This document shows, one piece after another, positions 4,699 to 31,482 of a DNA stretch of 32,277 nucleotides. Every line of letters starts with the position of its first letter. Within the stretch, counting starts at the first letter, position 1. Where the stretch lies: assembly GCA_013288205.1 (NCBI GenBank), contig JABDCH010000023.1, positions 1 to 32,277 of the forward strand, in the 5' to 3' direction. The notes beneath the pieces are model-generated. The model worked only from the letters and a program-made list of their open reading frames with translations, searched no databases and had not been told where the DNA came from. The DNA is from Bacteroidota bacterium (lineage in GTDB: Bacteria > Bacteroidota > Bacteroidia > JABEUT01). Made by a program: the position numbers and the translations under genes.

Positions 4699-4724
4699 AG
4701 CGTATCTTATTTTATGTTGTGCGG

Positions 4725-10376: not shown

Positions 10377-10458
10377 TTTGCATTAATACGAGTAGTTATT
10401 TATTCGCATATCATAATTCAAATGGATATAGAAAACGGTAGGTGTTTGATAAATGACT

Positions 10459-11574: not shown

Positions 11575-11675
11575 TTGTTATAACATTTTCTTATGTATGT
11601 TATTGAATAATTATTTTTACTTTTCCGATCCACTCTACGTTTTCAGTAATCACATAATCAGAATACCCAAACCAA

Positions 11676-13328
11676 TCATTTATTCTGCATTATCAATAGC
11701 TTACGCACCGATGTCCCGTTAGTGGTTTGCATACGCAAAGAGTATATACCAGAAGCTAAATTTTCGACATTTAATTGCTCAGCATAATCTCCTGTATTTA
11801 TATTTTTCTGTTCTGTATACACTTGCTGTCCAAGCTCGTTAATAATACTTATAGTAACATTATCACTTCCAGTGATGGTATAATTCAAAGTAAACATTCC
11901 GTTACTTGGATTTGGATAAACATTCAAATTAGTTATGTTATTCTCCAGATTATTAATACCAAGCAATTTTGCTACATTAAATCCATTAGAGAAAGCTCCT
12001 GAAAGTAATGAAAAGGAAGGCTTACCGGGTCTGTGTGTAGTGGGTACGCAGGGACCATTCGGATTTTCCGCTTCTACAACATAGTAGGAACCTAAAGGAG
12101 GCAAAGTATCATGGTAGGTGAGTATATTATTGGCAACTGAATCAATTGCCGTAAGTTTACTCAAGGAAGGGCCCCGGTAAATAATATATTTTGAAGGGGT
12201 AAATCCGACATAAGCTGTCCAATTCAAGATATATACATTATGTCCCGCTGTAGCAGTAAGATAAATACTTGTGTGCACAGGACTTAGTCCCGATTCGCCG
12301 CAAGAATCAACGGTAGATAATTTATAACTAACGGCTCCAGCAGAAGGATTAGAATTAGGATCGATATATTCACTCAATAGATTTAGAGCCTGACTATGAT
12401 CTAAAATATATGTATTATTACTATCCCTGTATATGTTAAAATGACCGTATCCTCCTGCTGGCGGAGAATTAGTTCTTCCCCATATTATTTTGCATTTATT
12501 TGTTGCGGTATCAAGAGTAACAATACAAATGGATTGATCATACGAATTTGTACAAGTACAATTAGTATCCACAATAACACCATCGGAATCACTACAACCA
12601 GCGTTATCCGTAACTCTGCACCCATAGTAATTAGCACATAAATTGTTTACTGTGGAATTAGTATACCCGCCTGGGGACCATAAATAAGTGTAGGGAGAAA
12701 CTCCTCCCCTCGTCAATGCTGTTACTGAACCGTTACATAAGAATTTGCAATCAGGGGTTGAAGAAGTCGTTAAAAGCGGAGCCAATGTGCCACCTACGGT
12801 TGCTGCGACAGAAGAAGTACATCCATTATTGTCGGTTACTGTACATGTAAATGTACCCGGTGGTAAATTAGAAAGGGTAGGACCAAACCACCATCTTGAG
12901 GGAGTCCAAGAATAAACATAGGGAGAAGTTCCTCCAGAAGGAATTGCAGTTGCTGTCCCATTAGGATTTTTGCAGCTGCTGTTATTAGTGGACGAGGAAG
13001 AAGCGGTCAGTGACGTAGGCTGTGTAATGGTCACAGATACAGAAGTTGTGTTAAATAATGCGTCAGCAACTCCTACAGTATATGTTCCTACTGAAAGACC
13101 TGTTGCCGTGACTCCCGATTGGGTAGGATTGGTTGACCATACATAAGTATATGGCGATGCACCTCCGGTAGCTGTTGCGGTTGCTGTACCACTGCTACCT
13201 CCATTACAAGATACATTTGTTTGACTTTTAATAACCACACTGAGTGGGGTTGCTTTAACTTGATCAAAGAAGAGGGGAATCATTAATACAAACAAAAAAG
13301 CACGTAATACGATAGTAGTGTTTTTCAT
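11676..13328 (-). CDS. Secreted SprB-repeat protein with T9SS type A tail
   Basis: 550 residues. After a signal peptide (MKNTTIVLRAFLFVLMIPLFFDQVKA) come three SprB-type repeats of ~75 residues, each containing C..GNGT/GTATA..GG.SPYTY.WS, then a 'LSVGTYTVGVADA' strand. The second and third copies read TATAIPSGGTSPYVYSW and SVTALTRGGVSPYTYLW. A middle region (~270-440) looks fibronectin/Ig-like without enzyme motifs. The tail is type A (LNVYPNPSNGMFTL, NELGQQVY, SGIYSLRMQT), slightly divergent with a final QNK. SprB repeats are known from gliding adhesins; a gliding role is possible but the protein is far shorter than SprB itself. Confidence 0.88.
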   Translation of the reverse strand: MKNTTIVLRAFLFVLMIPLFFDQVKATPLSVVIKSQTNVSCNGGSSGTATATATGGASPYTYVWSTNPTQSGVTATGLSVGTYTVGVADALFNTTSVSVTITQPTSLTASSSSTNNSSCKNPNGTATAIPSGGTSPYVYSWTPSRWWFGPTLSNLPPGTFTCTVTDNNGCTSSVAATVGGTLAPLLTTSSTPDCKFLCNGSVTALTRGGVSPYTYLWSPGGYTNSTVNNLCANYYGCRVTDNAGCSDSDGVIVDTNCTCTNSYDQSICIVTLDTATNKCKIIWGRTNSPPAGGYGHFNIYRDSNNTYILDHSQALNLLSEYIDPNSNPSAGAVSYKLSTVDSCGESGLSPVHTSIYLTATAGHNVYILNWTAYVGFTPSKYIIYRGPSLSKLTAIDSVANNILTYHDTLPPLGSYYVVEAENPNGPCVPTTHRPGKPSFSLLSGAFSNGFNVAKLLGINNLENNITNLNVYPNPSNGMFTLNYTITGSDNVTISIINELGQQVYTEQKNINTGDYAEQLNVENLASGIYSLRMQTTNGTSVRKLLIMQNK

Positions 13329-13442
13329 AATAAAATTATTGAATGATTATTGTTCAGATACAAATATATTAATTTCCGCCACATATTATCTATTCAAAGA
13401 TTATCGTTACTAATTATCTGTTAGTGTATTTTTCTGTATATT

Positions 13443-16400
13443 CTACCTTATCAATTGCACAAACCCATCTCTTTTATAAGATGCTCCCTGACAGCTCACG
13501 CTTATTATGTAATAATATACGCCATCAGGTGCTTCGCCCCCGCTTTCTGTCTTACCGGTCCAATATTGATTGGGATTACTTGATTTGTAGACTTCTTTGC
13601 CCCATCGGTCATATATGAGCAATGACCAGGTATCAACATTGTTTGTGGGTATATATAGTACACTATTTACTCCGTAAGGTCCTGCATAATTGGGAGTAAA
13701 AACATTGGGTACAATGAACCTGGAACATGGCAATTCAACAGCTATGGTAACTAATCTCTCCACCTGGCAATCCATGGAATCTATTCCAATTACTGTATAG
13801 GTAGTCGTTACCGTAGGTGCAACAGTTATAGAAGGACAAGTGTCACAGGTTATGCCTTCAGCCGGTTCCCATCTATAACTTTTTATTCCTTTTCCGCTTG
13901 CGGTAATTATCGTATCACCACCGAGAATTATAACGGTATTGCAACATGCACTCAGAGCAGGAATATCTGCTTTCAGGCTTGCCGAATCGACCACATCGCA
14001 CCCATTAGATACATTTACCGTGTAGGTTACATTACTGTCTCTTACAGTGATGGTAGATGTGGACCCATTACCTGGAGACCAGGAATAGCTAAACGAACCC
14101 TGGCCTGTAACATTCGCCTGTATTATTACAGGGCTGCCTTCACAAGCAATGAGAGGAGGAATGACGGTAACTGTGGGTGCAATGAGTGGTTTTATTTTAA
14201 ATAAAGTAGTGTCTGAACATCCGGTTTTTCCCAATGAATCAATAGCGATAACCAATATAGTTGAATCGCCATCAATGGGTCCTGTTATGTATTGGGCCCC
14301 TGTTTCCCCATTACTCCATTTGTAATAGGTTCCCCCGGTTGCGATTAAATTATCCAGGTAACCTTTGCAAAGCGAATCGTGCCCTGTTATGTCGGGATTG
14401 GGTTTAGCACAAACCTTTATAGTAACTATAGCAGAAGATGCTCTGCAACCCAATGCACTGTCTGTAACCGAATATGTAGTAGTAGTGGTAGGTGTAGCTA
14501 TGGGATTAGGACACCCGGTGCAGGAAAGCCCTGAAGCTGGGCCCCAATTATAGTTTATACCTCCAGAAGCTGTAATGGAAATACTTGTCCCCTCACATAT
14601 TGTTGTGTCATTGGGAATGGCTAAAATAGTATAGGTAGACACATCGGTAGAATCAAATTTGGCTACGAAGACATCCTTGCTCCCATTATTAGTTGATTGG
14701 TAGGCTCCTACTGTTGCCACTCCAGAATCGAGGGCGGTAATTCCAGTGATATAAACATTCTTACCGCCATCAATAGCTATTGTAGTGGGATGGTCATCTG
14801 AACCTGAACTGTTGTAATACGTTCCCCATAATAGACAGGTAACCGATGAGTTAAACTTTGCCACAAAGGTTTCTCCAAAAGTTGTCTGGTAAGCGTTGGC
14901 AGTAGCTATATTGCTTGTAGAATAAGTAAAACCTGTAATGTATGGATTATCTTTCGAATCTATTACTATTCCCGTAGCATCTGTATTATATTTTCCACCG
15001 TAATAAGTTCCCCATAACAGGGAAGAACCGGAAGAATTAAGTTTAGCTACAAAAGCATTAAAATCAGATCCCTCTTTCCCTAAAAAAGTGGTTTGGTATG
15101 CACCGGCAGTAGCTATTCCTGAACTGCTCCATGTCCCACCTGTAATATAAACATTATCGCTCGCATCAATAGTTATCCCATTAGCATCAGTCTCATATTC
15201 TCCCCCGTAATAAGTACCCCACAACAGAGAACTACCTGAAGAATTAAACTTAGACACAAAGGCATTATCCTGATTTCCAAAATTGCTGGTAGTATAATGT
15301 GGTTGGTAAGCTCCGAGGGTAGTAATACCCGAATCGCCCATAGTCTGTCCGGCAATATAACAATTATTGCTTGCATCGACAACTATTCCATTACTCCATA
15401 CGAACTGATTAGATTCATAATAAGTACCCCATAACAGAGAGGAACCGGCAGGATTAAACTTCGCTATAAAAACAGATAAGAGGCCTATATTAGTGTTTGT
15501 GTTCTCATAAGCGCCGACAGTAGCGATGCCTGACGTGCAGTTAGTCCCACCGGTAATGTAAATATTATCATTGGCATCAATAGCTATTCCTGTGCCATTT
15601 GTGCCCCCACCATTACCGGACGTTCCGCCATAATAAGTTCCCCACAACAAAGAATCTCCTGTAGAATTAAATTTGGCAACGAAAGCATCGACTCCAGCTA
15701 CTGCATAATTTGTTTGGTAAGCTCCTTTGGTAGCTATGCCTGATGTACTTGAAGTAGCTCCTGTAATGTAGGCATCGTCATAAGCATCTACTGCGATACC
15801 GTATGCCTCCGCTCCCCCAGCTCCGCCATAATAGGTTCCCCAAAGCAAGGAAGAACCGGAAGGATTAAATTTGGCCACAAAAGCATTGAAATTTCCTGCG
15901 TAAATCGTTTGGTATGCCCCAACGGTAGCTATATTGCTGGTGTTATTTGTCCATCCTGTAATATATACACTATCATGGGCATCCAGAGCTATTCCTGTAC
16001 TTTCCACAAAATCGGGGCTTATACCTCCATAATAAGTTCCCCAAAGTAAATCGGGAACCGGGTCAATTATCAAATCGGTAGATAGCGCTGTACCATTGGG
16101 AAGGGAAAAACCGAATGTATTATTGCCAAGACTAATATAATTGACATTCACGGGCTTTTTATTGGCTCCTTTACTTGAGCCGACACGCTCTAATAAATAG
16201 CTATTGGGAATACTCTCTGCAAAATCTCCTTTAGTTACGCTAAGTATTAATTTATTGTCGGTCAGAGTTGTTTTATAGGTTCCTTTATAGGTCAGTTTTA
16301 TATCAGCAAGATTTCCACCGGGATGTACGATAAACTGGTATTCTATAGGGACTATAGAAATTTGCGCCGGATTTTTCTGCATAGCACAAAATTCCAAATC

Positions 16401-16892
16401 TATGTGCGGATAGATGTTTTTATAAATAACCCGTTGGTAATAGTGAATATCACGTGCTCCTCCGTGTGCTGCATCGGCAGTAAGGTAATTAAAATAGGCA
16501 GTAGATTTTTCTTCTGCTATTATTTGGGCATTTCTATTGCAGCCCACTAATTCTATATCAACCCTGTGATACTGACGGATAAATCTTTTAAGATTTTTTT
16601 GATTCTTTCCAAATGATTTTTTAGAATAAATAGTGAATGAACTATCGTCAATTACTGAATCAGTGTAAGTATCATAACTAAAGCCGGTTTGCCGAAGTTG
16701 TATGTTAAATCCTGGACGGCATAATAAAAACTTTATAGTAGGATAGGGCTCATGGTTTTGGTCTATCACTTGTCCCTTATTTTCTACAAAGCCATTTGCT
16801 CCAACTTTACATCCTGTAAGGTTCCCAGTCTGGGAATATCCCATAATTGCCAGTAGAATAAATAAACCGCTTAAAGTAGAAATTTTCCTCAT
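13443..16892 (-). CDS. Large SBBP-repeat surface protein with gliding-type (type B) T9SS C-terminus
   Basis: I start at 16892 (MRKISTLSGLFILLAIMGYSQ, a clear signal peptide); an upstream in-frame ATG at 16970 would put a hydrophilic leader in front of it. The product is 1149 residues. The N-terminal ~250 residues match the domain that usually precedes SBBP propellers (FVENKGQV..., YQRVIYKNIYPHIDLEF). Seven repeats follow, each carrying LLWGTYYGG...GIA.D...N.YITG.T.S..IAT.GAYQT..., the beta-propeller SBBP unit. About 780-1050 contain Ig-like segments with paired cysteines (GLSCTGCPNP, GITCDTCPS). The last ~90 residues are the gliding motility-associated C-terminus (FIVPNVFTPN, WSLLIYDRWGKEVY, APDGVYYYIISV, KRDGFVQLIR), i.e. 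a type B signal. Surface-exposed; role unknown. Confidence 0.9.
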   Translation of the reverse strand: MRKISTLSGLFILLAIMGYSQTGNLTGCKVGANGFVENKGQVIDQNHEPYPTIKFLLCRPGFNIQLRQTGFSYDTYTDSVIDDSSFTIYSKKSFGKNQKNLKRFIRQYHRVDIELVGCNRNAQIIAEEKSTAYFNYLTADAAHGGARDIHYYQRVIYKNIYPHIDLEFCAMQKNPAQISIVPIEYQFIVHPGGNLADIKLTYKGTYKTTLTDNKLILSVTKGDFAESIPNSYLLERVGSSKGANKKPVNVNYISLGNNTFGFSLPNGTALSTDLIIDPVPDLLWGTYYGGISPDFVESTGIALDAHDSVYITGWTNNTSNIATVGAYQTIYAGNFNAFVAKFNPSGSSLLWGTYYGGAGGAEAYGIAVDAYDDAYITGATSSTSGIATKGAYQTNYAVAGVDAFVAKFNSTGDSLLWGTYYGGTSGNGGGTNGTGIAIDANDNIYITGGTNCTSGIATVGAYENTNTNIGLLSVFIAKFNPAGSSLLWGTYYESNQFVWSNGIVVDASNNCYIAGQTMGDSGITTLGAYQPHYTTSNFGNQDNAFVSKFNSSGSSLLWGTYYGGEYETDANGITIDASDNVYITGGTWSSSGIATAGAYQTTFLGKEGSDFNAFVAKLNSSGSSLLWGTYYGGKYNTDATGIVIDSKDNPYITGFTYSTSNIATANAYQTTFGETFVAKFNSSVTCLLWGTYYNSSGSDDHPTTIAIDGGKNVYITGITALDSGVATVGAYQSTNNGSKDVFVAKFDSTDVSTYTILAIPNDTTICEGTSISITASGGINYNWGPASGLSCTGCPNPIATPTTTTTYSVTDSALGCRASSAIVTIKVCAKPNPDITGHDSLCKGYLDNLIATGGTYYKWSNGETGAQYITGPIDGDSTILVIAIDSLGKTGCSDTTLFKIKPLIAPTVTVIPPLIACEGSPVIIQANVTGQGSFSYSWSPGNGSTSTITVRDSNVTYTVNVSNGCDVVDSASLKADIPALSACCNTVIILGGDTIITASGKGIKSYRWEPAEGITCDTCPSITVAPTVTTTYTVIGIDSMDCQVERLVTIAVELPCSRFIVPNVFTPNYAGPYGVNSVLYIPTNNVDTWSLLIYDRWGKEVYKSSNPNQYWTGKTESGGEAPDGVYYYIISVSCQGASYKRDGFVQLIR

Positions 16893-17077
16893 GCGGGTGG
16901 TTTTATGAATAAAAAACAGCCTCCGATATATTACAAAGATAGCCTTTTCTTGTAATAAAATAGCTTGCAATGCTCTTATAAATGCCCTTAAGACACAAAA
17001 TCACGCATATCATAAAATTTCGATACTTTATTTTTTGTGCTTTAGGGGCAATGTTGTTACTTCTGAATGGAGTTCAA

Positions 17078-17248: not shown

Positions 17249-19036
17249 TTGGATGATTGTGCTGCCCTTATGCAGGTATATTATTGGTTAAAACAACTGG
17301 GTACGGATGCTCAACAGGACAATGTGCAGCAAGTGAATGAAATGAAGAGGGTCAGTCCATATAAATTTCATAATAATCCTGAATTTGGTGACGATTTCAA
17401 CTTCATCAATAAAGCTTCATATTTTGATTATCAGCGCACCAAAATTTACTGGAGAAATCAGAGAGGGACAACACCGGCTGCTATATTGAAGAGTCAGCAA
17501 CAGAAAAGACATCTTGGCAGGGGGAATGTCTTTTGGAAACCTAAAAAAGTTCATGAGGTTATTATTATTCCGCCATTAAAAAAATGCCCATTTTGCGGTA
17601 CCAAAAAACTTTATCATACAAGAAAGACTCGTGCATCCAGGCAAACAGATATAAAATTTACATCAACGGGTATTAAGCAGCACGTCATTGAGTATAGATG
17701 TGGAAATGTTAAATGTGCAAAATGCCGTAAAAAGTCAAGCAATGGTAATATACGGAAACTGCACTATGGTGATAATTTATTTGCCTGGATTATAAATCTT
17801 TATGTAAGGTATCATATCAGTCATGAGTTAATATGCCGTTTGATTTATGAGCAATTTGGAATTTGGATGAATGCGGTATACTTAATAACCGCTAAACAAA
17901 GGTGGTGGTCGAATTGGAAGCCTGAAGCTGACTATCTCTGGCAAATTGTCAAAAATAGCCCGGTTATACACATAGATGAAACTACGGTTAAGTTATCTAA
18001 GGAACGGGGTTATGTATGGGTATTTGCCACACAGCACACAGTCTTTTATCATTTTACCATCAATCGGGAAGCTGACTATTTGCAGGAATGGTTAAAGGAT
18101 TATAAAGGAGTTATTATTACTGATTCATTTCCTGGATATGATTCTATACCCATAAAACGCCAAAAGTGTCTTATTCATATCATCCGGGACTTGAATGATG
18201 ATTTATACAAAAATCCTTTTGATGATGAGTATAAAGCAATAGTAGTGGCATTTGGTAAATTATTGCGTGATATTATAGAAACCATTGACCATTATGGGCT
18301 ACAGAAAAAGCATTTGCGTAAGCACAAAAAAATGACCGAACGATTCTATAAATTGCATATTGATTGTATACATAAAAGCGAGTTATCTGTTAAGTGTACA
18401 AAACGTCTTCAAAAACACTGGGATGAATTATGGGTATTTCTTGATCATGACAATGTGCCATGGAACAATAATAACGCTGAAGCTGCCGTGAAAGCCTTTG
18501 CTCAGCATAGGCGGGGTGTAAATGGTCAGGTTAGTGCCAAAGGCATTAGTGAGTTTTTGGAAATGCTTAGTCTTGCACAAACTTGCCGCTACCGTAATAT
18601 TTCGTTTTTAGATTTCCTTCGCCGCAAAGCAGGTATATGGGATAATATTCAATCAAGCGATTTAACAAAGTTCCTACCATACTCACAGGCCCGGTTATTT
18701 ATGCATAAACAAGAATTGTATAATAAGGAGGAATGGATACTATGGAATAGTGAAGATAAGCGACCTCATTTTATTCCACAAAATCCTGAAAGAACATATA
18801 AGGATAAGGGGTGGAGAGATTGGGACGATTGGCTTGGTTGTCCTTTTTTACCTTTCAATAAGGCACGGACTTACATGCGAAAACTTGGTCTCCGAACCAG
18901 AAGACAATATGTAACTTGGCTTCGCAATGGTAAACGTCCTAAATTTATTCCTCCCAATCCCGAAGAATTTTATAATCGCATTGGTTGGAATGGCATTGGC
19001 GACTGGCTTGGGATTAATATCGAAAACGGAACATAG
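17249..19036 (+). CDS. IS66-like DDE transposase with two C-terminal integrase-type repeats
   Basis: 595 residues from TTG 17249; the frame is open from 17144, so the true start is uncertain and the protein is probably 5'-truncated. An 'FINKASYFDYQR' segment (~52-72) leads to a zinc ribbon (KKCPFCG at ~111-115 and CGNVKCAKC at ~151-159). The catalytic triad is plausible: D243 (HIDETTVKL), D292 (ITDSFPGYD) and E411 (WNNNNAEAAVKAF), in the IS66 style. Residues ~475-590 hold two ~55-residue units, each with PF..AR.yM.k..L......Y..W....kRP.FIP.NPE..Y...GW..W.DWLG, like the phage-integrase repeat unit (INT_rpt). Fusion of the RNase H-like nuclease end to this transposase type is, to my knowledge, a recurring architecture in bacteria; the added integrase repeats are unusual. 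No terminal inverted repeats were recognised. Confidence 0.8.
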   Translation: MDDCAALMQVYYWLKQLGTDAQQDNVQQVNEMKRVSPYKFHNNPEFGDDFNFINKASYFDYQRTKIYWRNQRGTTPAAILKSQQQKRHLGRGNVFWKPKKVHEVIIIPPLKKCPFCGTKKLYHTRKTRASRQTDIKFTSTGIKQHVIEYRCGNVKCAKCRKKSSNGNIRKLHYGDNLFAWIINLYVRYHISHELICRLIYEQFGIWMNAVYLITAKQRWWSNWKPEADYLWQIVKNSPVIHIDETTVKLSKERGYVWVFATQHTVFYHFTINREADYLQEWLKDYKGVIITDSFPGYDSIPIKRQKCLIHIIRDLNDDLYKNPFDDEYKAIVVAFGKLLRDIIETIDHYGLQKKHLRKHKKMTERFYKLHIDCIHKSELSVKCTKRLQKHWDELWVFLDHDNVPWNNNNAEAAVKAFAQHRRGVNGQVSAKGISEFLEMLSLAQTCRYRNISFLDFLRRKAGIWDNIQSSDLTKFLPYSQARLFMHKQELYNKEEWILWNSEDKRPHFIPQNPERTYKDKGWRDWDDWLGCPFLPFNKARTYMRKLGLRTRRQYVTWLRNGKRPKFIPPNPEEFYNRIGWNGIGDWLGINIENGT

Positions 19037-19223: not shown

Positions 19224-20468
19224 TTATGCTGTATATTTCTTAAAGATACTTGTAGCAATATGTCCACCAAAGCCAAATGTATTGCTCATAGCGTAGACGA
19301 CTTCACTTTTAAGTGCTTTACCAGTGATAATATTTAATTTACCTGCAAATTCCGGTTCAATCGTTTCAGTATTGATTGTGGGTGGTATTGCATTTTCATT
19401 GATCGCTATTATGCAAGCAATCGCTTCTATTGCTCCTGCAGCGCCTAACAGGTGCCCTGTCATAGATTTGGTAGCACTTATCTTTAGCTGAGAATTATTT
19501 CCAAAAACCCTTTCAATTGCTTTTAATTCACTCAAATCTCCCACAGGAGTTGAAGTAGCATGAACATTGAGGTAATTAACATCACCAGGTTTTATATTTG
19601 CATCTTCCATCGCTAACAGCATTCCTAAATAAGCGCCTTCTCCTTCCGGATGAGTGCCGGTAAGATGATAAGCATCCGCGGCCATTCCTCCACCCACAAT
19701 TTCAGCAAGAATTGGCGCATTCCGCTTTATAGCATGTTCGTAGTTTTCGAGGACAAGCGCGCCGGCCCCCTCACCCATTACAAATCCATCGCGATTGACA
19801 TCAAATGGCCTTGAAGCGAGGGCAGGGTTATCATTAAATGTAGACAATGCCCTTGAAGCATTAAAGCCCCCCAAAGCGCTTGCGGTAATTGGAGCCTCTG
19901 AGCCGCCAGTTATAATCATATCAGCCTTTCCCCATCTTATATAATCGAAGGCAGTTACGATAGCGGTGTTGGAAGTAGCACAGGCTGATACAGTGGCGAA
20001 ATTAATACCCCGTAGGCCATATTTAATAGAAATAACTCCGGCAGCTATATCTACAATCATTTTCGGAACAAAGAAGGGATTAAACCTGGGCGTACCATCT
20101 CCTTTGGCGTATTCTACCACTTGTTCTTCAAAGGTAGTTATGCCTCCATTGCCCGAACCCCATATAACTCCAATACGGTTCCTGTTAAGCTTTTCAAAAT
20201 CAATAGCAGCATCTTTTATGGCCTCATCAGCAGCTATTACTCCATATTGTGTAAATAAATCGTATTTGCGGGCTTCTGATTTTTCTATATAATCTAAGGG
20301 CTCAAAACCCTTCAGCTCACACGCAAACCTCGTTTTAAATTTCGATACATCAAACCGCTTGATATGCGCTGCACCGCTTTTACCGGCAAGTAATGCCTTA
20401 CTGAATGCATCCACATTATTCCCAATTGGCGTTAATGCCCCCATTCCTGTTACAACAACTCTGTTCAT
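19224..20468 (-). CDS. fabF: 3-oxoacyl-ACP synthase II (FabF-type)
   Basis: Condensing enzyme that extends acyl-ACP with malonyl-ACP in fatty acid synthesis; cytoplasmic. 414 residues, the normal FabF length. The catalytic Cys is C163 (TVSACATSNTAI). The two active-site histidines are H303 (NVHATSTPVGD) and H339 (TKSMTGHLLGAAGA), with K334 before the latter. The C-terminal NTFGFGGHIATSIF loop is typical. It lies apart from acpP or fabD/G genes, so it is probably a second FabF copy. Context (thiolase, thioesterase, SDR and exporter further upstream on the same strand) suggests a specialised acyl pathway, but the 100-bp gap and the intervening membrane gene make co-transcription uncertain. Confidence 0.93.
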   Translation of the reverse strand: MNRVVVTGMGALTPIGNNVDAFSKALLAGKSGAAHIKRFDVSKFKTRFACELKGFEPLDYIEKSEARKYDLFTQYGVIAADEAIKDAAIDFEKLNRNRIGVIWGSGNGGITTFEEQVVEYAKGDGTPRFNPFFVPKMIVDIAAGVISIKYGLRGINFATVSACATSNTAIVTAFDYIRWGKADMIITGGSEAPITASALGGFNASRALSTFNDNPALASRPFDVNRDGFVMGEGAGALVLENYEHAIKRNAPILAEIVGGGMAADAYHLTGTHPEGEGAYLGMLLAMEDANIKPGDVNYLNVHATSTPVGDLSELKAIERVFGNNSQLKISATKSMTGHLLGAAGAIEAIACIIAINENAIPPTINTETIEPEFAGKLNIITGKALKSEVVYAMSNTFGFGGHIATSIFKKYTA

Positions 20469-20568: not shown

Positions 20569-20967
20569 TTAATCCGAGTTTTTTAAAGTGTTTTCTTTTT
20601 TAGACACCATTATCAATGCAACTACCTGCAATATTGATAACACAAACGGCCCTATTGATTTTCCAAAGTCAGCTTGATAGATTCCAATGAATCCATCAAA
20701 AAACTGCATTAACCCAACTAAGATTCCTAAAACGACTAATTCCTGTTGAGTCCTTTTTAAAATCACCCATATAACTATAGCAGCTATTGGAATTGTTCTT
20801 GCTGCAGCATACATCGCAAAAATCAGAGTCGAGTTTGAAATAACTGAATTAGCAGGCAGTAACACAGAAGGATGGATAAGTCCAGCAATTGAAAATCCTG
20901 TCGCAACTAAAACATTTATAGCAGTTACGATACTTAAAAATTTCAAATTTGTCTTTTTCATAATCAT
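20569..20967 (-). CDS. Small four-helix membrane protein, unknown function
   Basis: 132 residues starting MIMKKTNLKF (M3 is an alternative start). Four hydrophobic segments are visible, at about 10-32, 43-65, 73-95 and 104-124. Short Lys/Arg-rich turns lie between them (KRTQQE near 69) and a charged C-terminal tail (SKKENTLKNSD) follows. An 'AARTIPIA' motif in the second helix recalls small DUF4267/DoxX-like membrane families, but I would not assign a family. No catalytic residues are obvious. It lies 86 bases after the thiolase and 100 before FabF on the same strand. Confidence 0.6.
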   Translation of the reverse strand: MIMKKTNLKFLSIVTAINVLVATGFSIAGLIHPSVLLPANSVISNSTLIFAMYAAARTIPIAAIVIWVILKRTQQELVVLGILVGLMQFFDGFIGIYQADFGKSIGPFVLSILQVVALIMVSKKENTLKNSD

Positions 20968-21053: not shown

Positions 21054-22325
21054 TTACGCTGGTTTCTCCAAAATCATTGTTATGCCTTGTCCCCTGGCCG
21101 CACATATGGAAATAAAGCCTCTGCCTGAACCTTTCTGATTTATAAGTTTCGCAAGTGTGGCAATAATGCGTCCGCCAGTAGCGGCAAACGGGTGTGCCGC
21201 AGCAAGGCTGCTTCCTTTCACATTTAATTTGATTCTGTCTATTTTGCCAAGAGGCTCGAATCCAAAAGTCTTACTAAGCTCTGCACTTTCCCATATTTTC
21301 AACGTTGTCAATACCTGGGCTGCGAAAGCTTCATGTATTTCGTAAAAGTCGAAATCCTGTAATGTTAATCCTGCCTTTTTCAGCATTCTGTTTGCTGCAT
21401 AAACAGGGGCGAGTAAAAGGTTATGTTTGTTTTCTACATATTCTATGGCTGCCAGTTCGGCATGGGTTAGGTACGCTAAAACAGGCAGGTTGTGTTCTGC
21501 TGCCCATTGTTCGCTTGCTAATAGTACACTCGCAGCCCCGTCGCTGAATGGTGTTGAATTACCCGCCGTCAATGTGCCATGTTCTTTATCAAAAGCCGGT
21601 TTAAGCCGCGCTAATTTTTCCATGCTGGTATCTCGGCGGAGGTTGTTATCTTTCTCCAGGCCCATAAAAGGGGTTAACATATCATTAAAGAAACCTTCAT
21701 CATAAGCCTTGGCCATTTTCAGGTGGCTTTGCAAGGCAAATGCATCTTGTTCCTCACGCGATATGCCATAGTATTTAGCCGTATATTCTGTATGTCCGCC
21801 CATAGATAATCCTGTTTGTGGTTCGTTGATATTGGGCACCACAGGCATTAAATCTTTTAAATGGATAGATGCTATTTTCTTTATTCTTTCCAGCGTGGAG
21901 TGGCTTCTTCGCACTTGCAATAATATTTTGCGCAAGTGTTCACTAACCACAATGGGTACCTGGCTGGTAGAATCTACGCCCACGGCAATGCCTGAATCTA
22001 TCTGTCCCAAAGTAATTTTATTGGCTAAATAAATGGCGGCCTCAATACCTGTATCACAAGCTTGTTGCAAGTCGCAGCCCGGAGTTGCAGGATTCAAAGC
22101 CGTATTCATCACAGATTCCCGAACGAGATTGCCTTCTGAACTATGTTTTATAACCGCTCCTCCGGCAACTTCTCCCAATAGTTCCCCTTTTAGTTTGTAT
22201 TTTTCAATAAGTCCGTTTAGCGTCGCTTCCAACATATCTCTATTGCCCGCTTCGGCATACGCTGTATTTTGTCTGGCGAATGGAATCCGGCTATACCCGA
22301 CTATGGCTACCTTTCTGTTATTCAT
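21054..22325 (-). CDS. Thiolase, FadI-like acetyl-CoA C-acyltransferase
   Basis: Catalyses reversible 3-ketoacyl-CoA thiolysis or acetyl-CoA condensation. 423 residues, slightly longer than biosynthetic thiolases and close to FadI. The nucleophile is C90 (QQACDTG), where FadI-type enzymes have a CATS-like motif. H331 lies in EIHEAFAAQ, H378 in AAAHPFAATGGR, and the second catalytic Cys is C408 (SICAARGQG). The 'GGAVIKHSSEGNLVRE' segment is FadI-like. Its start overlaps the thioesterase stop by 4 bases, so the two are coupled. Whether it works in beta-oxidation or in synthesis of an exported compound cannot be read from sequence. Confidence 0.9.
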   Translation of the reverse strand: MNNRKVAIVGYSRIPFARQNTAYAEAGNRDMLEATLNGLIEKYKLKGELLGEVAGGAVIKHSSEGNLVRESVMNTALNPATPGCDLQQACDTGIEAAIYLANKITLGQIDSGIAVGVDSTSQVPIVVSEHLRKILLQVRRSHSTLERIKKIASIHLKDLMPVVPNINEPQTGLSMGGHTEYTAKYYGISREEQDAFALQSHLKMAKAYDEGFFNDMLTPFMGLEKDNNLRRDTSMEKLARLKPAFDKEHGTLTAGNSTPFSDGAASVLLASEQWAAEHNLPVLAYLTHAELAAIEYVENKHNLLLAPVYAANRMLKKAGLTLQDFDFYEIHEAFAAQVLTTLKIWESAELSKTFGFEPLGKIDRIKLNVKGSSLAAAHPFAATGGRIIATLAKLINQKGSGRGFISICAARGQGITMILEKPA

Positions 22326-22756
22326 TTTTTTGCTTGTATTTTAAACATGGTTGAATGTCCTTTGGCTATCATCTTGCTTTTATCATGGTTCCAAACAATA
22401 CACTCCGCGTTGGCAAACTGAGCCCCATTTTTTATCAGCGTAGTTTCAGCCACTAATATATCATTTTCCCTGGCAGCCGAATAGTAATCAATCACGTTGT
22501 TAATTGTGGTGTTGAAAAATGGTTCGCCAAGCGAATACATGGTAGCCCCTATAATATCGTCAATAATGGCTGCGGTTACTCCACCGTGGAGCGTTCCTAT
22601 CGGGTTTGTCATTTCTTTTCGCACCGTATATTGAAAACAGAGTTTGCCGTGTTTTGCTGACACTACTATGGGTTTGAGCCATAACATAAATGGGGAAGGG
22701 GAAGTGGCAAATTCCTTTCCTATAAAAGATTGAATGTTTTCCAAAGGTATATTCAT
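22322..22756 (-). CDS. Hotdog-fold thioesterase, PaaI family
   Basis: 144 residues, the usual size of PaaI/YbgC-like hotdog hydrolases that cleave acyl-CoA thioesters. The HGG signature (TLHGGVTAAIIDD) has H57-G58-G59 on the central helix and D66/D67 as catalytic or base candidates. The later GAQFANAECIVWN strand and GHSTMF end fit the family. It overlaps the thiolase start by 4 bases and follows the MFS gene by 20, so it belongs to the operon. Pairing with a thiolase suggests an acyl-CoA product that is released as a free acid; the substrate is unknown. Confidence 0.85.
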   Translation of the reverse strand: MNIPLENIQSFIGKEFATSPSPFMLWLKPIVVSAKHGKLCFQYTVRKEMTNPIGTLHGGVTAAIIDDIIGATMYSLGEPFFNTTINNVIDYYSAARENDILVAETTLIKNGAQFANAECIVWNHDKSKMIAKGHSTMFKIQAKK

Positions 22757-24216: not shown

Positions 24217-24978
24217 TTATTTTATAGGGGCCCGGCTGGCAAACATTTTTTGCAGGGCGGCTTCGGGCGAAGACAGGTAGAGTTTGTAAAAATCTGCCGT
24301 CATGCCTGCATGAATTTCATAGGTGTCATTTTCAAGCCCTTGCCATAATGCTTCTGCCACTACCGATGGGTGGATTCCATTAGCTCCGCCTATGTCTTTG
24401 GAAAGTTCCGTATTTACAAGCGGAGGCATCAATTCAAATACTTTTACATTATCGGTAACTTCTGCCAGTTGCATCCGCAGCGATTGGGTGTAATTATGCA
24501 AAGCCGCTTTGGTGGCAGAATAGGTGGCTATGCGTCCGGGTACAAAAGCAACAACCGACGATACGTTTACAATAGCCGATTCAGGCTGTTTCTTTAATTG
24601 GGGTAAAAGTTTTTCTATTAACCGTATCACGGCAAAATAATTGGTCTGCATTTCATCTTTCGCTTTTTCATATGCGTTAATGCCTTCTTCTAAAAGCGGA
24701 TATGCGATGGCACGTCCTGCATTGTTTATCAGGATATTCATTTGCGGAAATTCCTTTTCAATTCTTGCCACTAATTCATCCATATCTTTTTCCTTGCGTA
24801 TGTCACATTGTATGGCTGTTATATTCGTAAGCCCCGAAGCCGCTTTCATAAGCCGTTCTTTATCCCTGCCGGTCATTATTATATGGTTTCCTTTTGCCGA
24901 TAGAAGTTTTGCCATTTCAAAGCCTATTCCGGCGCTGCTGCCTGTAATTAAGATGGTGTTCCCACTGGTGTTTTTCAT
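24217..24978 (-). CDS. Short-chain dehydrogenase/reductase (DltE-like SDR)
   Basis: 253 residues, classical SDR. The cofactor loop TGSSAGIG is at 12-19 and NNAG at 85-88. The catalytic tetrad is N113, S140 (VNVSS), Y153 and K157 (YSATK). R38/D39 after the second strand suggest NADP(H) preference. Sequence such as ELMPPLVNTEL and the C-terminal region place it with DltE-type oxidoreductases; the substrate is unknown. First gene after the palindromic operator at 25008-25029, 30 bases before its start, and probably the head of the operon SDR-MFS-thioesterase-thiolase. Confidence 0.9.
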   Translation of the reverse strand: MKNTSGNTILITGSSAGIGFEMAKLLSAKGNHIIMTGRDKERLMKAASGLTNITAIQCDIRKEKDMDELVARIEKEFPQMNILINNAGRAIAYPLLEEGINAYEKAKDEMQTNYFAVIRLIEKLLPQLKKQPESAIVNVSSVVAFVPGRIATYSATKAALHNYTQSLRMQLAEVTDNVKVFELMPPLVNTELSKDIGGANGIHPSVVAEALWQGLENDTYEIHAGMTADFYKLYLSSPEAALQKMFASRAPIK

Positions 24979-25007: not shown

Positions 25008-25029
25008 AAATATACCGTTCGGTATATTT
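25008..25029. promoter_or_regulatory. TetR operator O1, perfect 10-bp dyad upstream of the SDR operon
   Basis: AAATATACCG-TT-CGGTATATTT: a perfect inverted repeat of 10 bases around a 2-base centre, 30 bases before the SDR start. The same motif with one mismatch occurs upstream of the tetR gene (25673-25694). The core ATACCGnnCGGTAT is typical of TetR-family sites. Regulation by the adjacent TetR is inferred. Confidence 0.8.
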
Positions 25030-25043
25030 GTGGCTAAAAAAAA

Positions 25044-25637
25044 TTATTTTTTGAGTTCCTGTTTAATTATTAATTCTATTCTATCCAGGGCATTAAATAA
25101 AAGTTTAGCATCGTTATTAATCTTTGCCATCATAATCCCCCCCTCTATCAATATGATTATAGTATTGGCATATTTATGCGCATCAATACTCTTTTTAAAC
25201 TGGCTTTGCTTTTTACCAAGATTGATCAGTTCAGCCACATAATTTACCCAATTGCTTATAGTATGCTGTACGTCCTTTTTTAAAAAAGGCAAGTTATCAT
25301 CAGCTTCAATAGACGCATTTAATATAGGGCATCCGCCACGTTCAAATACCTGTTTCCAGCCATCGCGGTAATATCCTGTAAAAGCAAAAAGCTTATCAAT
25401 TGCCATCTCTTTGCTGTTAACCAAGTCACCCACTCTTTTTCTCATGCCTCCGACATTATAGTTATATACGGCAATTGCAATTTCATTTTTGTCCTCGAAA
25501 TTTCCATAAATAGCTCCCTTTGTTAACCCGGTAACAGTAGTAATGTCATTTAATGAAGTCCCGGCGTATCCTTTAATATTAAAAATAGGAGCGGATTTTT
25601 CTATTATAAATTGGCGAGTGTTATTGGCTTTTGACAT
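25044..25637 (-). CDS. TetR/AcrR-family transcriptional repressor
   Basis: I start at 25637 (MSKANNTRQF), giving 197 residues; the in-frame ATG at 25706 would place the operator inside the gene. The N-terminal HTH (residues ~9-55) contains FNIKGYAGTSLNDITTVTG and TKGAIYGNFEDKNEI, the standard TetR signature. The ligand domain has an RGGCPILNASIEADD segment (C103) common in YxaF/AcrR-like members. It lies directly before the SDR-MFS-thioesterase-thiolase genes on the same strand. Two palindromes, one before its own start and one between it and the SDR, indicate autoregulation and operon repression. The inducing ligand is unknown. Confidence 0.92.
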   Translation of the reverse strand: MSKANNTRQFIIEKSAPIFNIKGYAGTSLNDITTVTGLTKGAIYGNFEDKNEIAIAVYNYNVGGMRKRVGDLVNSKEMAIDKLFAFTGYYRDGWKQVFERGGCPILNASIEADDNLPFLKKDVQHTISNWVNYVAELINLGKKQSQFKKSIDAHKYANTIIILIEGGIMMAKINNDAKLLFNALDRIELIIKQELKK

Positions 25638-25658
25638 AACTACTAATATTTGACGGGG

Positions 25659-25694
25659 CAAAGATACATCAGAAATATACCGATTGGTATATTT
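25659..25694 (-). promoter_or_regulatory. tetR promoter with operator O2
   Basis: On the minus strand a -7 box TATCTTTG (CAAAGATA at 25659-25666) matches TAnnTTTG. Immediately upstream is O2 (25673-25694): AAATATACCG-AT-TGGTATATTT, the same dyad as O1 with one mismatch. The operator occupies the space between the -7 and -33 elements, where a bound repressor would block polymerase. Confidence 0.65.
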
Positions 25695-26584: not shown

Positions 26585-27172
26585 ATGAAGGATTTTGAAA
26601 TTCTACAATATGCTTTAAACTCTTTTGCTAATCTCAATGACGAGGATTTTAAACTTTCATTACCCTATTGGCATTGTAAAGAGTATAAAAGAGGGGAATA
26701 TTTTAATGAGCATAAAGAGGTATGTATTTATATGGGGTTTGTAATAAGCGGAATATTTAGGTCATACATTATTGATAAAAAGACAGGTGAGGAGAAGAAT
26801 ATTTTTCTGTATCCTAAAAATCAGTTTGTAGTAACATTCAAAAGCTTTATAAACCAGATTCCATGCGACTATTATACGCAAGCGATTGAAGATTCTCAGG
26901 TGATATATATTAGTTTCATTGATCTTCATAATTTATATAAACAATCCCAAAATTGGGAACGTTTTGGACGGCTTTTGGCTCAGGAAGCTTTTAATGTAGC
27001 AATGGATAGGTTGGAAAGCTTTGTTTTTAAGACACCGGAAGAGCGTTATATTGAGTTATTGAAACACAATCCCGATATATTCAATAATATTCCGCTTTAC
27101 CATATTTCATCTTATTTGGGTATAAGGGGGCCATCACTAAGTCGAATCAGAAAAAGAATTTCTTTAAAATAA
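26585..27172 (+). CDS. Crp/Fnr-family transcriptional regulator
   Basis: 195 residues. The N-terminal cNMP-type beta-roll covers ~25-115 (YKRGEYFNEHKEVCIYMGFVISGIFRSYI... then FVVTFKSFINQIPCDYYTQAIEDSQV). A dimerisation helix follows (~120-150), then a C-terminal winged HTH (~160-193) with IPLYHISSYLGIRGPSLSRIRKRI as recognition region. The usual cAMP-contact RGExxxRxxxA motif is not visible, so the effector is probably not cAMP; no Fnr cysteine cluster is present. It sits 71 bases before a plus-strand operon of hydrolases and a dioxygenase and is the natural candidate for its regulation. Confidence 0.88.
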   Translation: MKDFEILQYALNSFANLNDEDFKLSLPYWHCKEYKRGEYFNEHKEVCIYMGFVISGIFRSYIIDKKTGEEKNIFLYPKNQFVVTFKSFINQIPCDYYTQAIEDSQVIYISFIDLHNLYKQSQNWERFGRLLAQEAFNVAMDRLESFVFKTPEERYIELLKHNPDIFNNIPLYHISSYLGIRGPSLSRIRKRISLK

Positions 27173-27243
27173 TACGATTTTAACTTAGGTTAATAATTTT
27201 ATATGTTTTTTCAAGCACATTTGTAACCTTAAATAAATTATCC

Positions 27244-29133
27244 ATGAAAGCAGATACCATTCTTTTCAATGGTAAAATTCATACCATTGATAAATTAAAC
27301 AAAGGAGCAACAGCGGTTGCGATAAAAGATGGAAAGTTTATTGCCGTTGGAAGTGACAGTACAATCATGCAGCTTAAATCGGATGGAACTTCCATGATTG
27401 ATCTCAAAAAGAAACGAGTAATTCCGGGGTTAAATGATTCCCATTTACATCTTATCAGAGGTGGGCTTAACTATAATTTGGAATTGCGTTGGGATGGAGT
27501 CCCTTCACTTGCCGATGCTTTACGTATGTTAAAAGAACAAGTGTCAAAAACACCATCTCCACAATGGGTTCGTGTAGTAGGCGGTTGGACTGAATTCCAA
27601 TTTGCTGAAAGACGTATGCCCACACTTGATGAAATTAACGCCATTGCTCCGGATACTCCTGTATTTATATTACATCTGTATGACCGGGCATTTTTGAACC
27701 GTGCTGCTTTAAGAGCTGTAGGCTATACTAAAGATACACAAGCGCCTCCGGGAGGGCAGTTACAAAAGGATGCCAATGGGGAACCGACAGGTTTAATCCT
27801 TGCTACTCCAAATGCAATGATTCTATATTCAACATTAGCAAAAGGTCCAAAACTACCATACGAGCATCAGGTTAACTCTACCCGTCATTTTATGAGAGAA
27901 CTTAACAGACTTGGTATTACAAGTGCAATTGATGCAGGAGGCGGGTTCCAAAATTTCCCGGATGATTACAAAGTAATTACCGAATTAAACCACAAGAAAC
28001 AATTAACAGTCCGTATCGCCTATAATCTTTTTACGCAAAGACCTAAACAAGAGCTGGAAGATTTTGATAACTGGACTAAATCAGTCAAACTGTATGAAGG
28101 TGATGATATGTATCGCCACAATGGAGCGGGCGAAATGTTGGTATTCTCTGCAGCAGACTTTGAAGACTTTCTGCAACCGCGTCCCGATTTGGTAGATAGC
28201 ATGGATGCCGAACTGGAACGTGTAGTAAGATTGTTGGCTGAAAAGCATTGGCCATTTCGTTTACATGCAACCTATAATGAAAGTATTACCCGCTTTCTGA
28301 ATGTTTTTGAAAAGGTGAATCGAGATATTCCATTTAATGGGCTGCCTTGGTTTTTTGACCATGCGGAAACTATTGACGAAAAAAATCTTGAAAGAGTAAA
28401 GGCTTTGGGTGGAGGTATTGCGATACAAGACCGCATGGCGTTTCAGGGGGAATATTTTACGGAACGATATGGGGCTAAAGCTGCCATGGATACTCCTCCC
28501 GTTAAACGTATGCTCGAAACGGATATACCTGTTGGTGCAGGTACCGATGCAACGCGTGTAAGCAGTTATAACCCCTGGGTTTCTTTATACTGGCTTTCTT
28601 CGGGTAAAACGGTGGGTGGATTGCAATTGAACAATGGCAAAAAAAGCCTTAGCCGGGAAACTGCCCTTGAGCTTTATACGAGAGGCAGTGCATGGTTTTC
28701 AAATGAACAGGATAAAAAAGGAGATATTAAAGTAGGAATGTTCGCTGACTTAGCTGTATTAGATGAGGACTACTTTAACATTGAGGAAGAAAAGATAAAA
28801 GGTATAGAGTCTGTTCTAACTATTGTAGATGGTAAAATTGTATATGCAAAAGATGACTTCGCATCTTTTTCTCCGGCTCCGATTCCTGTCCTACCTGACT
28901 GGTCGCCAACTAACAGTTACAATGGGTACTATTCTGCAAAAGGTAAAAGAACAGCTAAAGACAAATTAGATACATCTGTCGATACTGCCGGCATAACAGC
29001 AATGATACACCAATGTATTGGAAGTTGTAATGTGCATGGACATAATCACGATAATGCGCGCCTGAGTAATTTGCCGGTAAATAATTATACTGCATTTTGG
29101 GGTGCACTCGGATGTTCGTGCTTTGCATTTTAA
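27244..29133 (+). CDS. YtcJ-like metal-dependent amidohydrolase with Cys/His-rich C-terminal tail
   Basis: 629 residues, amidohydrolase superfamily (YtcJ/AHS type). An N-terminal beta-sandwich strand (TILFNGKIHTID) and the HxH metal pair H67/H69 (GLNDSHLHL) are followed by H341 (FRLHATYNE), H373 (FFDHAET) and D435 (GAGTDATR), the expected metal and catalytic ligands. The C-terminal beta-sandwich strand (LTIVDGKIVYAKDDF) ends at ~540. An ~85-residue extension follows with MIHQCIGSCNVHGHNHDNA and a final ALGCSCFAF, rich in Cys and His and possibly metal-binding. No signal peptide. First gene of a tight plus-strand operon (30 bases to the next gene). Substrate unknown. Confidence 0.88.
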   Translation: MKADTILFNGKIHTIDKLNKGATAVAIKDGKFIAVGSDSTIMQLKSDGTSMIDLKKKRVIPGLNDSHLHLIRGGLNYNLELRWDGVPSLADALRMLKEQVSKTPSPQWVRVVGGWTEFQFAERRMPTLDEINAIAPDTPVFILHLYDRAFLNRAALRAVGYTKDTQAPPGGQLQKDANGEPTGLILATPNAMILYSTLAKGPKLPYEHQVNSTRHFMRELNRLGITSAIDAGGGFQNFPDDYKVITELNHKKQLTVRIAYNLFTQRPKQELEDFDNWTKSVKLYEGDDMYRHNGAGEMLVFSAADFEDFLQPRPDLVDSMDAELERVVRLLAEKHWPFRLHATYNESITRFLNVFEKVNRDIPFNGLPWFFDHAETIDEKNLERVKALGGGIAIQDRMAFQGEYFTERYGAKAAMDTPPVKRMLETDIPVGAGTDATRVSSYNPWVSLYWLSSGKTVGGLQLNNGKKSLSRETALELYTRGSAWFSNEQDKKGDIKVGMFADLAVLDEDYFNIEEEKIKGIESVLTIVDGKIVYAKDDFASFSPAPIPVLPDWSPTNSYNGYYSAKGKRTAKDKLDTSVDTAGITAMIHQCIGSCNVHGHNHDNARLSNLPVNNYTAFWGALGCSCFAF

Positions 29134-29163
29134 TAATATACTAATTATCTAACCTAACCAATT

Positions 29164-29952
29164 ATGGCAAAAGGAAAAATTGTATTTATTCATGGATTAT
29201 GGATTCACACCAGTTCATGGCAACCCTGGATGGATTTCTTTAACCTGCATGGTTATGAAACCATAAACCCTGCATGGCCCGGTGATTCTGCTACAGTTAT
29301 AGAATGCAGGGAGAATCCACAAGCTATTGCCAACAGAGGGGTAACGGAAATTGCAGACAGTTATGCTAAAGTTATTGAATCGCTTTCTGAACCACCAATT
29401 GTGATTGGTCATTCTTTTGGTGGGCTCATCGCACAGATAATATTGGGACGTGGTATTGCTGCTGGGGGTATAGCCATTGACCCTGCTCCTATAAAAGGAG
29501 TATGGCAGCTACCGTTTTCATCACTTAAATCTTCCTTCCCTGTACTCGGAAACCCATTCAACCTCAAAAAAGCTAAATCCCTAACTTTTGGCCAATTCAG
29601 ATATGGTTTTGCTAATGCAGTTACGGAAAAGGAAGCAAGGGAATTATATGATAAATGGACAATACCTGCTCCTTGTCGTCCGCTTTTCCAGGCTGCAACA
29701 GCCACTTTTGCAGGGTCAGAAACAAAAGTAAATACAGCCAACGTTACACGAGGGCCACTACTTATTACTGGTGGAGAAAAAGATCACATCGCACCTCCTA
29801 TTCTTGGCGAAGCCTCACTTAAAAAATATAATTCATCTGTAATTACAGAGTTTAAATTGTTTGAAGATAGAGGACATTCCTTAATTGTTGATCATGGGTG
29901 GAAGAAAGTTGCAGAAAGCATACTTACCTGGCTTAACAATAAAGGGCTATGA
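29164..29952 (+). CDS. Alpha/beta hydrolase
   Basis: 262 residues, alpha/beta-hydrolase fold. The oxyanion strand IVFIHGLWIHTSSW is at 6-19. The nucleophile elbow GHSFGG gives S84. The acid is D207 (ITGGEKDHIAP) and the base H238 (EDRGHSLIVD). A lid-like insert covers ~115-180. No signal peptide or membrane segment. It lies 30 bases after the amidohydrolase, so co-transcription is likely. An esterase or C-C hydrolase role fits the dioxygenase downstream, but the substrate cannot be inferred. Confidence 0.9.
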   Translation: MAKGKIVFIHGLWIHTSSWQPWMDFFNLHGYETINPAWPGDSATVIECRENPQAIANRGVTEIADSYAKVIESLSEPPIVIGHSFGGLIAQIILGRGIAAGGIAIDPAPIKGVWQLPFSSLKSSFPVLGNPFNLKKAKSLTFGQFRYGFANAVTEKEARELYDKWTIPAPCRPLFQAATATFAGSETKVNTANVTRGPLLITGGEKDHIAPPILGEASLKKYNSSVITEFKLFEDRGHSLIVDHGWKKVAESILTWLNNKGL

Positions 29953-30001
29953 GACGAATTAACATAAAATATAAATCAAACTAAAATCAAATCAGCAAGT
30001 T

Positions 30002-30196
30002 ATGAAAATATCGTCTAATTTATTGACTCCAGGTAATCACTCTCTATTACTTGCTGACTATGAAGGTCAGATGAGTTTTGCAACACAAAGTATTCCAATA
30101 AGTGAACTGCGTAATAACGTTGCGATTGTTGCCGGGGCTTCCAAAATTTTTAATATTCCCACAATTATTACAACAGTCGTTATTAATGGGAAATAA
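30002..30196 (+). pseudogene. N-terminal fragment of an isochorismatase-family cysteine hydrolase
   Basis: Only 64 residues: MKISSNLLTPGNHSLLLADYEGQM..., then SELRNNVAIVAGASKIFNIPTIITTV. This matches the start of cysteine hydrolases of the isochorismatase/nicotinamidase fold. The catalytic Asp (D19 in LADYEG) is present; the Lys and the nucleophilic Cys, expected ~100 residues further on, are missing. Family members are about 180-220 residues. The frame ends just after the second strand, and the next gene begins 18 bases later, so most of the gene was deleted rather than frameshifted. It should have no catalytic activity. Confidence 0.8.
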
Positions 30197-30213
30197 AAGA
30201 AGCTGATTTTTAT

Positions 30214-31482
30214 ATGAAACGTTTTTTCTCAATAGCAGCATTTGAGCCTTTTAAAGAAAAACTCTTTCTGACCCTTTGGGTAGCAGCTTTTATATCCAAT
30301 ATTGGTACCTGGATGCAAAATGTAGGCGTAGGTTGGTTAGCCGCTACTATGTCGGCATCACCATTGATGATTGCATTGATTCAGGCGGCATCTTCTTTAC
30401 CTGCCATGCTTTTCAGTTATCCAGCCGGTGTAATCTCCGATCATTCCGATAGGCGAAAACTATTGATATGGGTACAGATTTTTCTTTTTGTAGTGGTGTT
30501 GCTTTTAACAATACTCACCCAATTCCAGTTATTGGAAATTTATTTGTTGATATTTTTTACTTTTTTAATTGGGATAGGTTCTGCATTTACCACTCCTATA
30601 TGGCAGGCTATTACCCCGGAAGTGGTGAGTAAAGGCCGTATGAAAGAAGCCATTGCCTTGAATGGGGTGAATTTTAATTTGGCGAGGGCAGTCGGTCCCG
30701 CAATTGGAGGTGTTATCCTTGTTTACGGAGGTATACAATCTATCTTTTTATTCAATGCAGTTTCTTTTCTTGCACTAATCGGAGGGCTTTATTGGTGGAA
30801 AAACTCTACTTCTGCATTTCAATCCATTCATTTCCGTAAAACAGCCATTGAAGGCCTTAAGGCTGTAAGAAAATCAAAACCATTCCTGCATTTGCTTATA
30901 CGTACTCTTTCATTTACAGCTTTTACCAGTATCGTATTTGCACTTCTTCCGCAGTTATCAAAATATGAATGGCATCAAAATAGCGGACAATATGCCTGGC
31001 TTTGGGTAAGCCTCGGTGTAGGTGCATTAGTGGGTAGTTATTTATATGGTATTGTGAATAAATCGCTAACTGCCGCTAAGGTTATCTTTTATAGTTGCGA
31101 ATTGGTGGCACTTTGTCTTTTCCTACTTACAAAAACTGCAAATTACTACATGCTTAATTGTATTATGTTTCTTGCGGGAATTGGATGGATAAACGCAACC
31201 TCCACTTTAAATGTATTGGCACAACAACACTCTCCCAATGAATTAAAAGGGAGGTTTTTAGCTGTTAATGTTACTGTTTTTCAAGGTTCCATTGCATTAT
31301 CAAGTGTGGCATGGGGTTACTTATCTGAGCTATTTAGTGCGTTGCCGGTTATAAGAACTGGTGCAATAGTTATGGGCATTCTTTCTGCGATAATATTATT
31401 ATCACCGATGGAAGAACAGGAAATTATAAAAAAGGACACGGTTGCCTGTAGTGACCCATTACTGCAATATCAGCTAAAATAA
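30214..31482 (+). CDS. MFS transporter, MFS_3 / enterobactin-exporter-like
   Basis: 422 residues, about 12 hydrophobic segments, resembling the MFS_3 group. The opening FLTLWVAAFISNIGTWMQNVGVGWL is characteristic, and motif A-like SYPAGVISDHSDRRKLLIWVQ lies after helix 2. GIGSAFTTPIWQAITPEVV and the GRFLAVNV loop of the C-terminal half are also typical. Probably an inner-membrane exporter of small hydrophobic or aromatic compounds. It sits in the same operon as the hydrolases and the ring-cleaving dioxygenase, 18 bases after the truncated hydrolase. Confidence 0.9.
   Translation: MKRFFSIAAFEPFKEKLFLTLWVAAFISNIGTWMQNVGVGWLAATMSASPLMIALIQAASSLPAMLFSYPAGVISDHSDRRKLLIWVQIFLFVVVLLLTILTQFQLLEIYLLIFFTFLIGIGSAFTTPIWQAITPEVVSKGRMKEAIALNGVNFNLARAVGPAIGGVILVYGGIQSIFLFNAVSFLALIGGLYWWKNSTSAFQSIHFRKTAIEGLKAVRKSKPFLHLLIRTLSFTAFTSIVFALLPQLSKYEWHQNSGQYAWLWVSLGVGALVGSYLYGIVNKSLTAAKVIFYSCELVALCLFLLTKTANYYMLNCIMFLAGIGWINATSTLNVLAQQHSPNELKGRFLAVNVTVFQGSIALSSVAWGYLSELFSALPVIRTGAIVMGILSAIILLSPMEEQEIIKKDTVACSDPLLQYQLK

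Follow-up and report, generated by a model that had tools for sequence, protein, structure and literature searches.

Gene run and paired palindromes around tetR

The window, by which we mean the whole 32,277-nucleotide stretch of Bacteroidota DNA analysed here, carries on its minus strand a tetR gene followed, in this order, by genes for an SDR oxidoreductase, an MFS transporter, a 4HBT thioesterase, a thiolase, a small membrane protein and a FabF paralogue. Two matched palindromic 22-mers, both upstream of minus-strand genes, lie on either side of tetR.

25673..25694, no strand: operator 2 (putative), AAATATACCG-AT-TGGTATATTT, one mismatch
25659..25666, minus strand: TATCTTTG, Bacteroidota-type -7 box of tetR, by consensus match only
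25044..25637, minus strand: tetR, 197 aa, TetR_N + TetR_C_13; true start ATG 25637, stop 25044
25008..25029, no strand: operator 1 (putative), AAATATACCG-TT-CGGTATATTT, perfect 10-bp arms, 2-bp spacer
24217..24978, minus strand: SDR oxidoreductase, 253 aa
22777..24207, minus strand: MFS transporter, EmrB/DHA2-like, 476 aa; TIGR00711 207.1 bits, below the cut-off of 230.2
22322..22756, minus strand: 4HBT hotdog thioesterase, 144 aa
21054..22325, minus strand: thiolase, NF006740/PRK09268 acetyl-CoA C-acetyltransferase, 423 aa; 662 bits, cut-off 539
20569..20967, minus strand: small membrane protein, 132 aa, no family
19224..20468, minus strand: FabF paralogue, 414 aa; TIGR03150 545.8 bits, cut-off 493.75

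The regulator scores 31.2 bits against TetR_N (cut-off 24) and 73.9 bits against TetR_C_13 (PF16925; cut-off 27). The ATG at 25637 was preferred as its start over a longer, mechanically called reading frame that extends across the operator. From tetR to fabF, the successive intergenic gaps measure 65, 9, 20, -4, 86 and 100 bp. The original prediction of an SDR-MFS-thioesterase-thiolase operon is correct as to those genes, but the run goes on to the small membrane protein and FabF. It had also described the thiolase as FadI-like; the protein fails the FadI models (TIGR02446, 332 of 711 bits; NF006516, 386 of 560 bits) and fits NF006740/PRK09268. The transporter stays below the EmrB cut-off, and the operon contains no EmrA-like gene.

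The two palindromes lie exactly where they had been reported. Operator 1, said to precede the SDR operon, falls inside the 65-bp gap between tetR and the SDR gene, where the promoter of the target operon is predicted; operator 2, said to lie over the tetR promoter next to the -7 box, covers the -33/spacer region and stops 6 bp short of that box on its upstream side. Allowing up to three mismatches, the 22-mer occurs twice in the 32-kb window (expected 0.00 from 100 shuffles), and a scan of the draft genome (2.42 Mb, 153 contigs, 61.68% complete) returned the same two copies only rather than many unrelated places. No other palindrome in the entire 32 kb reaches an arm length of 9 bp with a spacer of 0-6. 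A third, weaker genome match on contig C57 lies inside an 841-aa reading frame and was judged to be a chance occurrence. A palindrome search of the 86- and 100-bp gaps ahead of fabF found no operator, and co-transcription of this gene with the SDR operon is predicted from comparison with other loci. A literature search for a described operator of this sequence returned no relevant match.

Only two of the 11 genomes from the window's own genus carry this TetR, and the tetR locus therefore looks accessory. A gene for an IS66-type transposase (17249-19036, plus strand; NF033517, 198 bits, cut-off 180) is found at the end of the operon. On the other side, plus-strand genes at 26585-31482 encode a protein with a cNMP-binding domain (just under the Pfam cut-off), an amidohydrolase, an alpha/beta hydrolase and an MFS_3 transporter; no matching operator was seen at these genes. 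Positions 5233-6348 and 8988-16970 encode several secreted proteins whose C-terminal signals (Por_Secre_tail, CHU_C) are those of type IX secretion, which is to be expected where a Bacteroidia genome possesses that system.

Conservation of the paired sites

Relatives of the TetR were collected from public genome contigs and from 396 sampled Bacteroidia genomes, among which 27 carry one at E <= 1e-42. The set of loci compared comprises 34 Bacteroidota TetR loci, the window included. In nearly all of them a near-consensus ATATACCG-NN-CGGTATAT is located just upstream of tetR, and in 24 of the 34 a second site lies between tetR and the next gene. The presence of this second site follows the length of the gap: none of the ten loci with a gap of 25 bp or less has it (one of these has a neighbour on the opposite strand), as against all 24 loci with a gap of at least 38 bp, where it usually starts about 19 bp past the tetR stop (Fisher p = 8e-9, relatedness of the loci ignored). 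Given this pattern, the second site is expected to mark a separate target promoter and would not be needed where the target is co-transcribed with tetR.

The core ACCGNNCGGT is kept in relatives from Bacillota and Alphaproteobacteria. A Priestia megaterium plasmid encodes a TetR 29% identical to that of the window, with AGACCGNNCGGTCT at both ends of its gene and SDR and FabF genes thereafter; on another plasmid of this species a related TetR adjoins a PaaI thioesterase and a thiolase, and a Sinorhizobium relative has AAATACCGATCGGTATATTT before tetR. The two Priestia plasmids, L146 and L149, have AGACCGNNCGGTCT or near-matches to it around their tetR genes.

Matched sites at the regulator's own promoter and at that of its target are thus conserved in orthologues, from which we infer DNA binding and repression. 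It is highly probable, on these comparative grounds, that the TetR would repress both its own gene and the next operon through the matched predicted operators. The simple regulon envisaged at the outset, in which TetR represses itself and the SDR operon, draws strong support from the conservation of the paired sites and from the gap rule. A large regulon was rejected, most genomes having one to four operator matches versus zero to two for a control pattern.

Target genes and the FabF paralogue

No gene is found under this repressor more often than fabF, present at 16 of the 34 loci. Fifteen loci have it within the tetR operon; in the sixteenth, from sister genome G004, fabF and tetR diverge from a single operator between them. 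Thiolase (11 loci), SDR (nine), thioesterase (nine) and MFS (five: the window, L007, L009, L052 and L058) genes come next, and further targets include alpha/beta hydrolases and other types of thioesterases. Counting these gene types, some loci consist of tetR and fabF only (L043, L047, L051, L054, L060) and others of tetR and thiolase only (L048-L050). Many have other targets, such as hydrolases only or an MFS gene only, making FabF the most frequent output of the switch rather than a universal one. SDR proteins 57-62% identical to that of the window adjoin the orthologous tetR in several loci, and thiolases 70-72% identical to the window's are encoded in the tetR operons of L044, L045 and L048-L050. 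Small membrane proteins of 76-82 aa follow the SDR or thioesterase in the tetR operons of L006, L008 and L010; the one from L010, encoded between the thioesterase and FabF, was considered as an acyl carrier protein and rejected in favour of DUF2798 (PF11391), which the L006 and L008 proteins resemble by eye.

The genome of the window encodes a second FabF, 63% identical to the window copy, directly after acpP on contig C27. The window FabF is therefore a dedicated paralogue of this essential enzyme; its assignment as the housekeeping copy was rejected, as it is not next to acpP and has HATST and N107 instead of HGTST and I108. The near-complete genomes G008-G010, which are without this TetR, each yielded a single, acpP-linked FabF match. 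In a tree of 37 FabF proteins, a branch with 100/99 support separated the 18 that are acpP-linked from the 19 others, which are tetR-linked or unlinked paralogues. Since the paralogues form one clade, few evolutionary events may account for them.

The paralogues are set apart by changes in the acyl pocket and beside the catalytic histidine (E. coli numbering). G304, in HGTST beside the catalytic H303, is Ala in 19 of 19 paralogues versus Gly in all 18 housekeeping proteins; I108 is replaced by Asn or Gln in 17 of 19 (Ile in 18 of 18 housekeeping proteins), and G198 by Ala or Ser in 18 of 19 versus one of 18. L111 and position 168 are altered as well, and L111 and G198 also line the FabF acyl pocket. 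The catalytic residues C163, H303 and H340 are kept throughout the paralogues, including the window FabF, whose changes are I108N, G198A and G304A. The Priestia FabF encoded beside a related TetR keeps I108 and G304, which limits the signature to one clade; sequence comparison points to a trait of that clade, possibly with a single origin. In the FabF of B. subtilis, an I108F change confers cerulenin resistance via an altered acyl pocket (PMC3996569).

Genome G354, which already has one such TetR, carries on contig C13 (L134, about 2840-5660) a second tetR-SDR-fabF cassette with its own operator, a TetR 40% identical and a FabF that likewise has HATST. L108, one of three proteins called unlinked in the FabF tree, is a member of this cassette.

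Putative sensing and purpose of the regulon

Cys103, located in the motif GGCPILN, is the only cysteine of the window TetR. It is kept in 36 of 36 aligned TetR proteins and aligns with Cys106 of NemR, and Lys172, kept in 31 of the 36, aligns with NemR Lys175. Cys106 is critical for reactive chlorine sensing by NemR, for which a Cys106-Lys175 sulfenamide was proposed (PMC5297802); an engineered NemR-based sensor formed no such bond and required the cysteine alone (PMC8748444). By analogy, Cys103 probably acts as a thiol sensor releasing TetR from DNA. It could also be structural, and TetR_C_13 proteins in general may have it. The closest solved structure by sequence, the TetR-family regulator PDB 3eup (E 1.1e-40), shares the GGCPxLN motif; the match to it supplies no ligand or operator details.

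The E. coli nemRA-gloA system resembles the window locus in that NemR is autorepressing (as predicted here), has C106 and K175 at the aligned positions and controls a reductase gene; the two regulators are, however, only 21% identical, and the E. coli targets are NemA and GloA, not condensing enzymes. AltR, a NemR-like TetR of the allicin tolerance cluster of Pantoea ananatis, autorepresses via an inverted repeat, has further boxes in its target cluster and needs a conserved Cys100 for its release by a thiol-reactive compound and its response to thiosulfinates (PMC13178969). It differs in its operator, CAATCTAC-N6-GTAGATTG, and in its larger and different target cluster (PMC13178969).

The closest experimental precedent is that of P. 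putida F1. As described in the available portion of the report (PMC8319022), the TetR Pput_2425 represses fabF2 (Pput_2422), which forms an operon with an efflux pump (Pput_2424/2423), and FabF2 can stand in for FabB once the repressor is lost. By that description, the cluster and the window share the same order, with TetR first, the pump in the middle and the FabF paralogue last, and TetR keeps a spare FabF silent, as predicted for the window. This host is a Gammaproteobacterium, and the same portion of the report mentions no natural inducer, operator, paired sites, thioesterase or thiolase (PMC8319022). The likeness is one of gene order; a pocket signature of its own marks the Bacteroidota FabF clade. 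Our literature search turned up no relevant paper on a TetR-fabF-thioesterase regulon in Bacteroidetes.

The explanation that we find best, and to which we would give somewhat better than even chances, is that of a thiol-sensing repressor switching on a spare condensing enzyme together with detoxification genes. A TetR_C_13-type repressor would bind two matched operators, at its own promoter and at that of the next operon, and would keep tetR and SDR-MFS-thioesterase-thiolase-(small membrane protein)-fabF2 expression low. Its release would be brought about by a compound that reacts with thiols or mimics an acyl group, probably through Cys103, and the cell would then produce a second FabF, its acyl pocket remodelled, along with the thiolase, thioesterase, reductase and pump. 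The induced set might then sustain fatty-acid elongation and thioester handling during impairment of the normal Cys-dependent condensing enzymes, and might also help remove the offending compound. FabF and the thiolases, which recur among the outputs together with thioester hydrolases, an SDR and pumps, are themselves Cys-dependent condensing enzymes. We infer the cysteine chemistry, the inducer and the physiological purpose of this scheme from the gene set and conserved residues, and its purpose is less certain than its regulatory architecture. A narrower version is a widespread regulon for inducible target replacement, in which the TetR of Bacteroidota and, in relatives, of Bacillota would detect cerulenin-like electrophilic inhibitors of Cys-dependent condensing enzymes and call up inhibitor-tolerant FabF or thiolase isozymes with a pump, reductase and hydrolases; this is put forward tentatively, as a rather unlikely proposal in so specific a form.

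Foremost among the alternatives to an inducible spare-FabF/thioester-stress regulon, which we favour, is acyl-ligand homeostasis. TetR would here sense an acyl-CoA, fatty acid or similar thioester non-covalently and adjust elongation by FabF, cleavage by the thiolase and release by the thioesterase of an unusual acyl pool, the changes in the FabF pocket reflecting a different acyl substrate rather than resistance. Acyl thioesters are indeed the substrates of most recurrent outputs, fatty-acid sensing is known from other TetR proteins that regulate beta-oxidation operons (Smlt2053, PMC10304680), and a remodelled pocket could equally set chain-length preference. The cassettes reduced to tetR-fabF or tetR-thiolase do not, however, form a pathway, and chemical stress is suggested by the invariant cysteine, the mostly conserved lysine and the repeated presence of pumps, SDRs and alpha/beta hydrolases; we consider acyl-ligand homeostasis possible, if on balance unlikely.

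The same reduced cassettes bear on the original model, in which a specific acyl compound is exported or cleared, the MFS protein serving as exporter and the SDR, thioesterase and thiolase as catabolic or tailoring enzymes. That model can call on the EmrB-like transporter of the window and on its counterparts in four other loci; yet MFS genes are found in only five of 34 loci, and the commonest output, FabF, a biosynthetic elongation enzyme, had been overlooked. A gene set that often lacks a pump, thioesterase and SDR and has FabF or thiolase as its sole target is hard to reconcile with a pathway dedicated to export, and the model now appears weak and quite improbable. Another regulator might conceivably bind the palindromes, or these might be decoys while the adjoining TetR acts elsewhere. 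Such a reading would accommodate the weaker third site found inside a gene; the co-occurrence of the motif with this TetR subfamily across families, including the ACCGNNCGGT core at both ends of the 29%-identical Priestia tetR and before that of Sinorhizobium, renders it very improbable.

Should the favoured inducible spare-FabF regulon prove true, many Bacteroidota would possess an additional FabF kept silent by a chemical-sensing repressor, with a bearing on their tolerance of natural and clinical fatty-acid synthesis inhibitors, and the unexplained TetR-fabF2 arrangement of P. putida would gain a testable trigger. The wide recurrence of the switch and its gene set in Bacteroidota makes the trigger amenable to testing now, and the 16-bp operator and the gap rule make the regulon easy to find in new genomes.

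In one genome (G191, contig C17; L128), three perfect ATACCGATCGGTAT palindromes at 4322, 7693 and 12434 lie in a stretch of about 8 kb distant from the tetR locus, out of a total of eight matches. G191 may have a larger regulon, or its motif may be common to this and another TetR.
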